NCBI RefSeq assembly: GCF_037031225.1
Contig: NZ_JAYEZN010000001.1
Span: 682,001 to 746,000 of the forward strand
From: Halorientalis sp. LT38
GTDB lineage: Archaea > Halobacteriota > Halobacteria > Halobacteriales > Haloarculaceae
Reading direction: 5' to 3'
Length of the DNA stretch: 64,000 nt
In this document: positions 4,088 to 8,080 of the stretch, piece by piece
How the letters are laid out: each line of letters opens with the position of its first letter
How positions within the stretch are numbered: position 1 is the stretch's first letter
Program-made: the position numbers and the translations under genes
Notes under the pieces: model-generated
The model's input: the letters and a program-made list of their open reading frames with translations, nothing else
The model's database searches: none
Told to the model about the DNA's origin: nothing

Positions 4088-4786
4088 GTGGACGTGACCT
4101 TCCGGGACCGGGCGGTCGTCGTCGGCGACGCGCTGATCTGTGCCGACCTCCACGTCGGCAAAGCCGAGGCGGCGAACGTCTCGCTCCCGCTCGGCGAACG
4201 CGACCACCTCGTCGATCGGGTGAGCGCCCTCTGTGAGCGATACGACCCCGAGACCGTCGTCTTCGCCGGCGACCTCCTGCACTCGTTCGACCGCGTCGCC
4301 ACGGCCGCGGAGGAGACAGTCACCGCGCTCGAACGGACGGTCACCGACGCCGGCGCGCGGCCGATCGTCACGCCCGGCAACCACGACGCCATGCTCGACG
4401 CCGTCTGGAGCGGGCCGACCGAACACGAGTTCGCGATCGAGACCCCGGCGGGCACCGCCGTCGTCTGCCACGGCGACCACGAACCCGCCGCCGACGCGGA
4501 CTGCTACGTCGTCGGCCACGACCATCCGACTATTACCGTCGAAGGCAAGAAGTGGCACTGTTACCTCTACGCTCGCGAGGCCTACGACGGCGCGGACGTG
4601 CTCGTCCTTCCCGCCTTTAGCCACCTGATCGAGGGCGTCTCGATCAACCGTCGCTACGGCGGCACCGCCGAGACGCACTCGCCGCTGATCCGTGACCTGG
4701 ATAGCTTCCGGCCCGTCGTCTGGGACGACGATGCTGCCGCCGTCCGGGAGTTCCCGCCGCTCGGCGAGTTCCGGGAGTTACTCTAG
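4088..4786 (+). CDS. Calcineurin-like metallophosphoesterase
   Basis: 232 aa with a GTG start. The metallophosphoesterase metal-ligand blocks appear in order: DLHVGK (residue ~20), GDLLHSF, GNHD, CHGDHE and VGHDHPT. Length and pattern fit the archaeal MJ0037-like phosphoesterases. These often sit beside a DEAD helicase, which is absent here. The substrate is unknown. The 3' end overlaps the convergent FAD enzyme gene by 9 bp. Confidence 0.85.
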   Translation: MDVTFRDRAVVVGDALICADLHVGKAEAANVSLPLGERDHLVDRVSALCERYDPETVVFAGDLLHSFDRVATAAEETVTALERTVTDAGARPIVTPGNHDAMLDAVWSGPTEHEFAIETPAGTAVVCHGDHEPAADADCYVVGHDHPTITVEGKKWHCYLYAREAYDGADVLVLPAFSHLIEGVSINRRYGGTAETHSPLIRDLDSFRPVVWDDDAAAVREFPPLGEFRELL

Positions 4787-6034
4787 GGTTTCGGCGGCGA
4801 TCCGTCCGCTCTCCAGCGCCCCCTGGATCGAGGACCAGCGGGTGTAATCGCCCGCGAGGACGACCGGACCGTCGGGCGCGTCCGGATCGGGGAGGTCGGC
4901 GCGAAACCCCGGCGGTTGGGCGAACTGGGCGACGTCGATCCGATCTGTACTGATGAGTTCCAGTTCGTCGAAGCGCCGGGCCGGATACCACTGACCGAGG
5001 ACTTCACGGGCGCGGTCGCGGAGTTCCTCGTCGGTCGCCTCCGGCTCTCCGAGCCAGGTCGCGCTCAGTAGCGTCCGGTCGTCGGGGGCGTACGCCGGCG
5101 CGACGGCCGAGAGGGGTGCGATCTGGTTCGGTTCGGCGTCGCGAGCGTTCAGGACGATCTTCGTCCCCGTCGCCAGATCGACCCGGCGCGGCAGCGCGTA
5201 GTACTGGGTGACACAGCCCCTGGTGTCGGTCGGAACCGTGACGTCGGTCAGATCGGCCGCCGTCTGCGGATCGGTGGCGACGACCGCGCCGTCGGCGTGG
5301 ACTGTCTCGCCCTCGTCGGTCTCGACGGCGACGCCGTCGTTGCTGGCGTCGATGGCCGCGACGGAGCGTCCGAGTTCGATCTCGACCCCGGCGTCGCGCG
5401 CACCGTCGGCGAGTTGCCCGGTGATCGCCCCCATCCCATCGGCGGGGACCGCGGTCTTCCCGTTGACGAGCATCGCGAAGGTGTAGCGGAACACGCCCGC
5501 GTCGCTCGAAAGCGACCGGTCGAGCGTGATCCCGCCGTAGAACGGCGCGGCGAAGTTGTCGACGAACTTCCGGGAGAACCCCCGCTCGTCGAGGTACTCG
5601 GCGATGGTCTGCGTCTCCGCGGGGTCGAACAGCGTCTCGGGATCGGCACCCTTCAGTTCGCGCCGGAGTCCGAACAGCCGCAGTTTGTCGCCGGTCGTGA
5701 CGTCCGTGTTGAACAGCGTATCGGCGAGGTCGCCCGGACTGGAAAGGGGGTCCGCGAGCACCGACCGTCGGCCCGGGCGGGCGATCGTCGCGCCGGCGGA
5801 GAAGTACCGTAGGTCGAGCGCGTCGTAGTCCAGTTCTCGCCGGGCGGCCGGGTAGGCAGTGAACAGGACCTGGAATCCGCGGTCGAGGACGAAGCCGTCC
5901 TCGCGGGTCGAGCGGACGCGCCCGCCCACCGCGTCGCGCGCTTCGAGCACCGTCACGTCCGTCCCGTCTTCGGCGAGGTGTCGGGCCGCGACCAGTCCGG
6001 CCAGTCCGCCGCCGACCACCACGACGTCAGTCAT
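4778..6034 (-). CDS. FAD-dependent amine-oxidase/phytoene-desaturase-type oxidoreductase
   Basis: 418 aa. The N-terminal Rossmann motif VVVGGGLAGLVAARHL and the ribose-binding LEARDAVGGRVRS mark the flavin amine oxidase superfamily (protoporphyrinogen oxidase, phytoene desaturase). The C-terminal VLAGDYTRWSSIQGALESG closes the FAD site. The reaction is not known. The ATG at 6034 directly precedes the FAD motif and has a T-rich promoter element at about -27; the open frame extends another 55 codons upstream but without family similarity. Confidence 0.8.
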   Translation of the reverse strand: MTDVVVVGGGLAGLVAARHLAEDGTDVTVLEARDAVGGRVRSTREDGFVLDRGFQVLFTAYPAARRELDYDALDLRYFSAGATIARPGRRSVLADPLSSPGDLADTLFNTDVTTGDKLRLFGLRRELKGADPETLFDPAETQTIAEYLDERGFSRKFVDNFAAPFYGGITLDRSLSSDAGVFRYTFAMLVNGKTAVPADGMGAITGQLADGARDAGVEIELGRSVAAIDASNDGVAVETDEGETVHADGAVVATDPQTAADLTDVTVPTDTRGCVTQYYALPRRVDLATGTKIVLNARDAEPNQIAPLSAVAPAYAPDDRTLLSATWLGEPEATDEELRDRAREVLGQWYPARRFDELELISTDRIDVAQFAQPPGFRADLPDPDAPDGPVVLAGDYTRWSSIQGALESGRIAAETLE

Positions 6035-6192: not shown

Positions 6193-7383
6193 ATGACACG
6201 CAATCCGGCCGTTCGGGACCTCACCTGTCGGGACTGCGGCGACTCGTTCGACCCGGCCGATGCGACCGGGCCCTGCCCCGCCTGCGGCGGTCATCTGGCC
6301 GTGACCTACGATCTGGACGCGGTCGACGTCTCGACCGAGGCCTTCGCGGACCGGCGCTACGAGGGAATCGCCCGCTACGCCGACCTCCTGCCCTTCGCCG
6401 CCGAGACGCTGGTGACGATGCGCGAGGGGACGACGCCGCTGGTCCCCTGTCCGGACCTGGCCGACGAGTGGGGCGTCGGCGAGGTGTACGTCAAAGACGA
6501 GGGGCGCAATCCGACCGGCAGCGTCGCCGACCGCGGGATGGCGCTGGGGGTCACGGCTGCCGCGGAAGCCGGCGCCGAGGACGTGGCGCTGCCGACGACC
6601 GGCATCGAGGGACAGGCGGCGGCCGCCTACGCCGCCCGGGCGGGCCTGGACTCGCACTCCTTCGTCCCCTCCCGGGCGACGTTCGACGCCAAGGCCATGA
6701 TCAACGTCCACGGCGGGGACATGTCCGTGGTTGGCGGGCGCTACGAGGACGCCGTCGAGGCCTTCGCGGAGACGGTGGCCGAGGAGGGCTGGCACTCGCT
6801 GGCCGCCTTCGAGACGCCCTACCGCCGCGAGGGCCACCGAACGCTGGCGTACGAACTCGCCGAGCAGCTGGACTGGGCGGCGCCGGACGCCGTGATTTAC
6901 CCGACCGGCGAGGGCGTGGGACTCGCCGGGACGGCGGCGGGCGCGCGCGACCTGGCCGAACTCGGGTTCGTCGACGAGGTGCCCGAATGCTACGCCGCCC
7001 AGGCTGCCGGCTGTGCACCGATCGTCGAGGCGTTCGAGGCCGGGGCAACGGAGACGGAGCCGTGGGAGACCCCGGACACCATCTGCGGCGGGATCGAGAT
7101 CCCCGATCCGGCGGGCGGGGCCGAAGTGCTCGATGCGGTCGGCGAGTCCGGCGGCGGGGCCGTCGCGACGGTGGACCGCGACGTGCTGGAAGCGGCCGTC
7201 GACGTGGCACAGTCCGCAGGCGTAGAACTCGGCGCGACGGCCGGCGTGGCGGCCAGCGGCGCTCGGGAACTGGTCGAGCGTGGCGAGCTGGGCGCAGACG
7301 ATACCGTCGTGCTCGTCAACACGCTCACCGGGAACGCGGAGGCGGACGTGCTCCGGAGCCACCTCATGAGCAAAGGGATCTGA
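6193..7383 (+). CDS. Threonine-synthase-like protein lacking the PLP lysine (probable pseudoenzyme)
   Basis: 396 aa. The fold is that of archaeal threonine synthase: an N-terminal zinc ribbon (CRDCG, CPACGG), then REGTTPLVPCPDLA, KDEGRNPTGS and a beta/alpha core. The usual GSFKDRG, whose lysine forms the Schiff base with PLP, reads GSVADRG here: Ala112, codon GCC at 6526-6528. The phosphate/ring loop normally like SxGNxA reads TTGIEGQA at 135-142, so the conserved Asn is also gone. Family knowledge says a PLP enzyme cannot work this way; loss of catalysis or a new role is my inference. The frame is otherwise intact and the gene is followed after 4 nt by a LysE-type exporter. Confidence 0.8.
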   Translation: MTRNPAVRDLTCRDCGDSFDPADATGPCPACGGHLAVTYDLDAVDVSTEAFADRRYEGIARYADLLPFAAETLVTMREGTTPLVPCPDLADEWGVGEVYVKDEGRNPTGSVADRGMALGVTAAAEAGAEDVALPTTGIEGQAAAAYAARAGLDSHSFVPSRATFDAKAMINVHGGDMSVVGGRYEDAVEAFAETVAEEGWHSLAAFETPYRREGHRTLAYELAEQLDWAAPDAVIYPTGEGVGLAGTAAGARDLAELGFVDEVPECYAAQAAGCAPIVEAFEAGATETEPWETPDTICGGIEIPDPAGGAEVLDAVGESGGGAVATVDRDVLEAAVDVAQSAGVELGATAGVAASGARELVERGELGADDTVVLVNTLTGNAEADVLRSHLMSKGI

Positions 7384-7387
7384 ACCG

Positions 7388-8080
7388 ATGGCGGTCGCGA
7401 GCCCAGTTGCGACGCTCGGCGCCGGCGTCGTCTTCGGCCTGGCGCTGGCGGCCCCGCCGGGGCCGATGAACGCCGTCATCGCCGAGGAGAGCGTCCTCCG
7501 CGGCTGGCTGGCCGGGTTCACCGCCGGCCTCGGCGCGATGCTCGCCGACGCCTGCTTCTTCGTGCTGGCGCTGGTCGGCGTCGTCACGGTCGTCCGGGAG
7601 GCACCGACGCTCCGGGCGGTCATGGTCCTGGCCGGCGGCGCGCTGATGCTGTACTTCGCCGTCGGCGCGGCCGCGAGCACGCGCGAGGCGCTGGCCGGTG
7701 ACGCCGCGACCGACGACGTCGTGACTGGCCGCGGGTTCCGCAAAGCGTTCGTCCTCGCGCTGACCAATCCCTACCAGATCGCGTTCTGGCTGACCGTCGG
7801 CGTCGGGTTGCTCGACCCGGGAACCGTCGACGTGCTGGCGAAGACGCCGTATCTGGAGGGCGCGCTCGCGGGCGTGCTCGTCGTCGAGACGGGGAGCGCG
7901 CTGCTGCTTGCGGGGCTGTTCGGGGGCATCGCCTGCTGGATCGTCGGGTTTCCGGCGGCGCTGGTGGCGGCCGGGCGACGGGTCGACAGACTCACGCCGC
8001 TGGTCGCGGGGGCGAGCGCCGTCGTCCTCGCGGGCACCGGAGTGCTCTTCGTGGCCGACGGGCTCCGGGGCCTCTTCTAG
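7388..8080 (+). CDS. LysE/RhtB-family amino-acid exporter
   Basis: 230 aa, about six hydrophobic helices. The LysE signature APPGPMNAVIAEE lies at residues ~22-34, followed by GWLAGFTAGLGAMLADACFF and the ALTNPYQIAFW motif near 120. Members export basic or neutral amino acids and related small molecules. It starts 4 nt after the threonine-synthase-like gene, so the two are probably co-transcribed. A transported amino acid linked to threonine metabolism is only a guess. Its end overlaps the convergent HD gene by 4 bp. Confidence 0.85.
   Translation: MAVASPVATLGAGVVFGLALAAPPGPMNAVIAEESVLRGWLAGFTAGLGAMLADACFFVLALVGVVTVVREAPTLRAVMVLAGGALMLYFAVGAAASTREALAGDAATDDVVTGRGFRKAFVLALTNPYQIAFWLTVGVGLLDPGTVDVLAKTPYLEGALAGVLVVETGSALLLAGLFGGIACWIVGFPAALVAAGRRVDRLTPLVAGASAVVLAGTGVLFVADGLRGLF

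Follow-up and report, generated by a model that had tools for sequence, protein, structure and literature searches.

The window analysed here is a stretch of 64,000 nucleotides from Halorientalis sp. LT38. At positions 6193-7383 of its forward strand lies an unbroken open reading frame of 396 amino acids with zero internal stops, as given by the ORF call and its translation. The product, P0001, is described below as an S-type, threonine-synthase-like pseudoenzyme that lacks the PLP lysine, a description based on the ORF, a fold model and a fold search. Its zinc-ribbon cysteines C12, C15, C28 and C31 (residues 12-31) are encoded at 6226-6285 (+). A LysE-type translocator, which is a syntenic neighbour, starts 4 nt downstream of the gene at 7388-8080 (+). 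The commonest retained neighbour, a divergent FAD amine-oxidase-like gene, occupies 4778-6034 (-); its nearest model is the hydroxysqualene dehydroxylase HpnE, at a score below the cut-off (116.5 vs 283 bits).

Within the motif NPTGSVADRG (residues 106-115), the heptapeptide GSVADRG (residues 109-115; 6517-6537, +) presents Ala112, with its codon at 6526-6528, in place of the PLP lysine, whereas Lys is found at this position in 47/47 bacterial relatives and in 8/8 canonical ThrC rows of the genus. In TTGIEGQ (residues 135-141; 6595-6615, +) the Asn is replaced by Ile138. In TGEGVG (residues 238-243; 6904-6921, +), once the phosphate loop for PLP, Gly240 is replaced by Glu, the loop reading PTGEGVG as against PTGGGVG in the Lys-bearing orthologue L091. 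Judged by alignment, the cofactor site of P0001 is damaged at three places, namely Lys112, the loop Asn and the phosphate-loop Gly240; in this family the Lys motif, the Asn loop and the glycine phosphate loop are the elements that bind PLP. The preliminary description of this DNA had reported GSVADRG without the PLP lysine, TTGIEGQ without its Asn, an unbroken frame, the zinc-ribbon cysteines and a 4-nt gap to a LysE-family ORF at 7388, all of which are borne out.

The alignment also contains conserved stretches. The segment of residues 159-187 (6667-6753, +), which is retained in members without the lysine, contains P159, R161, F164, K167, A168, M169, N171, H173, G174, M177, G182, R183, D186 and A187. 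In PDTICGGIE (residues 294-302; 7072-7098, +), P294, D295, G299 and E302 are invariant in the S-type, although for R183, D295, G299 and E302 invariance is partly circular, given that S-type rows are defined as those carrying these four residues. In the C-terminal helix (residues 385-396; 7345-7380, +), D385, R388 and L391 are invariant, and S389, M392 and G395 nearly so.

The Pfam domain PALP spans residues 75-377. P0001 passes the cut-off of the NCBIfam model NF006050, “threonine synthase” (334.3 vs 303 bits), and misses the curated cut-off of TIGR00260, thrC (136.5 vs 167.1 bits). When four other proteins of the family were scanned with NF006050, L196 and L145 passed, and L283 (299.4) and L259 (167.8) failed. 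The AlphaFold2 model of P0001 has a pLDDT of 96.1 and a pTM of 0.94, and the ten best solved relatives of this model are all threonine synthases, the best match being 2c2b (Z 50.4, 390 residues, rmsd 2.1), with 1v7c at Z 48.0 (329 residues, rmsd 1.8). P0001 is like canonical ThrC (PLP fold type II; 1v7c, 2c2b) in its whole fold, at Z 48-50, and in many core residues, yet of the features of an active ThrC that were checked the fold alone is present: the PLP lysine, the glycine loop and the loop Asn are absent, and an intact ThrC is encoded elsewhere in the genome. It is like the PRK08197-type proteins (NF006050) that bear the lysine in exceeding the model's cut-off, and some of these Lys-bearing orthologues share its neighbourhood; the bacterial rows, however, keep the lysine (47/47), and the activity of the Lys-bearing members is putative, coming from the model's name.

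A member of the P0001 family is found in 384/391 Halobacteria genomes (E<=1e-70) and canonical ThrC in 388/391; hence, P0001 represents a second threonine-synthase paralogue, one that nearly all Halobacteria carry. The canonical ThrC of the host genome (L002) has an intact GSFKDRG motif and is 38% identical to P0001. At E<=1e-70, the family is absent from 7/391 genomes, four of which are less than 93% complete; the gene can thus be lost. A Lys-less copy is present in at least 172/391 genomes and 42/86 genera according to a strict DNA pattern (K-D-[D/E]-[G/A]-x-N-P-T-G-[S/T]-x-[codon, middle base not A]-D-R), a lower bound given that the pattern overlooks more divergent Lys-less members. The corresponding Lys-bearing pattern matches 203/391 genomes, and also catches other PALP families. 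None of the eight genomes of the window's genus keeps the lysine, which is replaced by Ala in five, Thr in two and Arg in one. Given this, and given how widespread Lys-less copies are in the class, the loss in P0001 is neither a sequencing slip nor chance. The same counts exclude the situation that the preliminary description had named as refuting its reading, a change found in this genome alone amid degraded copies. A literature search covering open-access articles found, among the matches listed, no description of this haloarchaeal family.

Two further motifs were encountered in these genomes. Another Lys-bearing paralogue, with NPTNTFKDRG for NPTGTFKDRG (L213, L215, L223, L232, L234, L235 and L263), occurs, in several genomes, alongside a Lys-less S-type gene. 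Many genomes of genus g3 (G114, G016, G187 and others) carry a PALP-like motif, KDDGRNPTGCFKDRG, with Cys preceding Phe-Lys.

A total of 361 matching loci were translated; requiring at least 330 aligned residues and merging rows more than 98.5% identical left 322 rows, 266 of them from the haloarchaeal family. These divide into 219 S-type rows, 63 with the lysine and 156 without it, and 47 non-S rows, 45 with Lys and two with Thr. The ratio of these two S-type counts should not be read as a prevalence, as genus guided the choice of some regions and the Lys-less pattern that of others, and the exclusion of rows shorter than 300 residues biases the sets toward intact copies. One row from a MAG with the Lys motif, L078, has internal stops in the matched stretch, and is the sole such row among 38 translated. 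The preliminary description had proposed checking whether Ala112 is conserved across haloarchaea. It is not: at residue 112 the 156 Lys-less rows have Ala (43), Leu (42), Thr (32), Val (16), Arg (7), Gly (4), Ile (3), Glu (2), His (2), Tyr (2), Phe (1), Ser (1) and Asp (1). With 13 different residues at this position, the aligned rows indicate that no single replacement for Lys112 is favoured.

The lysine was lost repeatedly. When 27 pocket columns are left out, a tree of 80 rows needs 11 or more changes of the Lys state, and forcing the 43 Lys-less rows to be monophyletic yields a dlnL of 612 and a p-AU of 6e-7, which rejects a single origin of the loss. The best tree has 11 independent pairs of Lys-bearing and Lys-less rows, and seven if branches must be supported; our count of independent losses is taken from the seven supported pairs. 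On a 277-row FastTree, Fitch parsimony requires only seven changes if regains are permitted, and assuming irreversible loss gives 16 maximal Lys-less clades, several of them poorly supported. Individual rows present the same picture: L196, with Arg at 112, is 84% identical to the Lys-bearing L101 vs 66% to the nearest Lys-less row, and L100, with Thr at 112, is 82% identical to the Lys-bearing L091. The S-type row L220 (G155:C9:396532-397683) keeps the lysine, in GTVKDRG, but has TTGDAGQ as its Asn loop and Pro307, residues that make it a plausible intermediate on the way to a lost PLP site. Among its relatives, L211 carries Glu, L212 Ala and L182 Val.

Other parts of the pocket are lost along with the lysine. 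Glycines 239, 240, 241 and 243 are all kept in 62/63 Lys-bearing S-type rows vs 0/156 Lys-less ones. For each site, the mean number of the seven pairs in which the residue of the Lys-bearing partner is lost with the lysine is 5.3 for site 136, 5.5 for 240, 5.5 for 307, 4.6 for 308, 4.5 for 218 and 4.3 for 215, values obtained on the same rows from which the list of pocket sites was selected. Sites 101, 113, 114, 161, 167, 173, 209, 221, 232, 276, 294, 295, 302, 306, 328 and 391 are identical throughout the seven pairs. All four zinc cysteines are kept in 118/156 Lys-less vs 62/63 Lys-bearing S-type rows, at least one being missing in 38/156 of the former. The Lys-less members are also more variable throughout, with a mean entropy of 1.47 vs 0.83 in Lys-bearing members.

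The gene neighbourhood is shared in part of the class. A recurring block, found around Lys-bearing and Lys-less members alike, consists of a metallophosphoesterase, the divergent FAD amine oxidase, the S-type gene, in some cases DtxR and GDT1, then LysE and an HD protein. In rows flanked by 2.3 kb or more on each side, the divergent amine oxidase lies within 0.8 kb in 62/111 Lys-less S-type, 10/35 Lys-bearing S-type and 0/15 non-S rows, and LysE lies downstream in 37/111, 9/35 and 0/15, respectively. None of the block's neighbours was found in the shorter flanks of 28 Lys-bearing second copies of one family. The shared neighbourhood is consistent with loss of the lysine at an unchanged locus, even if a great many members lack the block. 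At a Haloferax-like locus (L283:3734-5922), the Lys-less gene and LysE are separated by a regulator with DtxR and FeoA domains and by GDT1, a divalent cation antiporter, which suggests a metal-homeostasis neighbourhood.

Neither commoner neighbour is an obligate partner. Six genomes from other genera, each with a family member, were checked for LysE (E<=1e-20): it was near the gene in one, elsewhere in four (G371, G305, G254 and G295, where it is distant from the S-type gene) and not found in one (G018, which has a Lys-less copy). The divergent FAD amine-oxidase-like gene is present in 15/15 genomes checked, from 12 genera; genomes without the P0001 family have it in 7/7 cases. The preliminary description had linked the gene to amino-acid export through LysE. 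This link is weakly supported: in part of the class LysE does neighbour the gene in synteny, but DtxR and GDT1 often intervene or LysE lies elsewhere. Given that the same neighbourhood surrounds Lys-bearing members, it does not track the loss of the lysine, and a functional link between P0001 and the exporter is putative.

For Haloferax volcanii, PMC4300041 reports that a transposon in thrC3 (HVO_2969) causes a requirement for glycine, serine and threonine. Three Haloferax-like genomes, in which gene order was compared with pheA and ilvC as reference points, argue against HVO_2969 being the Lys-less gene: canonical ThrC lies 448, 454 and 453 kb from pheA vs 441 kb for thrC3, and the S-type gene lies 345-387 kb from pheA on the opposite side, with chromosome length assumed to be 2.8 Mb for two of the three. 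Five genomes were searched for this order, G243 and G266 being omitted because the genes are on different contigs. From gene order, HVO_2969 would correspond to canonical ThrC, and the S-type gene of H. volcanii should lie near 0.78 Mb, by HVO_0869 (786,914) and HVO_0863. The latter is TroR, a DtxR protein, according to PMC11349517; in L283, which is Haloferax-like, the S-type gene is directly followed by a DtxR gene. If this assignment holds, the threonine requirement of the HVO_2969 mutant implies that the Lys-less paralogue does not substitute for ThrC in H. volcanii.

Several explanations can be weighed against these data. Given that ThrC is nearly universal (388/391) and would suffice, S-type copies could be long-lived relics of a redundant enzyme in slow decay. 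Such decay would also produce the higher variability and the zinc-cysteine losses of Lys-less members, whose branches are longer in 4/5 sister pairs examined, and the family is missing in 7/391 genomes. We nevertheless give this account a small chance. The mean pN/pS is 0.22 among close, Lys-less Halorientalis rows, 0.41 among three deeper Halorientalis rows, where synonymous sites are near saturation, and 0.12-0.29 in five other Lys-less sets vs 0.18-0.25 in three Lys-bearing sets. A 73-sequence alignment, most of whose members are 44-62% identical to P0001, has 24 invariant positions; and the gene is retained throughout whole families, with one row with internal stops among 38, in sets that favour intact copies. 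The low pN/pS, the confident intact fold and the many invariant residues outside the pocket support the proposal of the preliminary description that the gene is maintained for a function other than PLP chemistry. P0001 combines a retained fold, a missing catalytic residue and purifying selection on its gene, as expected of a fold-type-II PLP pseudoenzyme. That the protein is still a PLP enzyme, using another lysine or holding PLP non-covalently as an external aldimine, is hardly credible: although K101, K167 and K216 are conserved in 96%, 100% and 93% of Lys-less rows, K101 and K167 are equally conserved in Lys-bearing members and are thus not new, the glycine phosphate loop is broken in 156/156 Lys-less rows, 82/156 have an acidic residue at 240 or 242, and Thr377 is retained in just 77/156.

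The conserved charged residues D113, R114, K167, H173, R183, R211, D295, E302, D328, D385 and R388 might be read as the mark of a new enzyme that uses the threonine-synthase fold without PLP. Nearly all of them, however, are also present in Lys-bearing relatives, so that no new catalytic set accompanies the loss of the lysine, and we consider this very unlikely. A pocket repurposed for another small molecule, be it a metal, an amino acid or a phosphorylated metabolite, as in a sensor near DtxR, GDT1 and LysE, would agree with the invariance of R161, K167 and R183, to which R211 comes close, and with the FeoA-domain DtxR-type regulator, GDT1 antiporter and LysE found directly downstream in parts of the class. 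Yet pocket positions differ between lineages, and these neighbours also flank Lys-bearing members and are missing beside many Lys-less ones; we regard this reading as unlikely.

The explanation that we favour, and hold to be reasonably probable, is that proteins of the P0001 type are PLP-free pseudoenzymes derived from a bifunctional paralogue and kept for a PLP-independent role. The ancestor would have been a second, PLP-dependent threonine-synthase-like paralogue of the S-type with an additional PLP-independent role. Nearly every haloarchaeon has canonical ThrC to make its threonine, so that the catalytic half of this protein would have been dispensable, to be lost on many separate occasions without a change of locus. 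The Asn loop and the glycine phosphate loop have decayed along with Lys112 and nearby residues, with lineage-specific replacements, and selection has preserved the remainder of the protein. P0001 itself would neither bind PLP nor have threonine-synthase activity. The putative retained surface, formed by residues 159-187 and 294-302 together with the C-terminal helix, most likely holds or regulates another protein or a non-PLP ligand, and the S-type protein is probably a non-catalytic partner or a ligand-binding subunit. Canonical ThrC or another amino-acid enzyme could, as a guess, be its partner; our survey of neighbourhoods and genomes found no partner, ligand or phenotype for it.

A close parallel with the same fold is the eudicot TSB-like pseudoenzyme, which, according to PMC12727527, has lost catalysis and activates tryptophan synthase alpha. 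Like the haloarchaeal proteins as read here, it is a noncatalytic fold-type-II PLP paralogue kept alongside an active enzyme. In the eudicot protein, however, two key residues are changed and the partner, TSA, is known, whereas the haloarchaeal proteins have lost the lysine as well as the phosphate loop, and have done so recurrently.

The initial observation is therefore correct, and wider than was stated. For annotation, it means that NCBIfam automatically labels as threonine synthase proteins without the residues for normal use of PLP. A more specific scenario, which we put forward tentatively as a possibility, is that a bifunctional ancestor lost its PLP half at least seven times and that the old PLP-independent role was kept, perhaps in sensing or gating at the DtxR/GDT1/LysE export block. 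If true, this would be a naturally replicated experiment in the conversion of a moonlighting enzyme into a pseudoenzyme. One syntenic gene displays graded and repeated loss of its cofactor site, with L220 as a likely intermediate, so that both the order of losses and the second function are open to direct testing through Lys-bearing and Lys-less orthologues.
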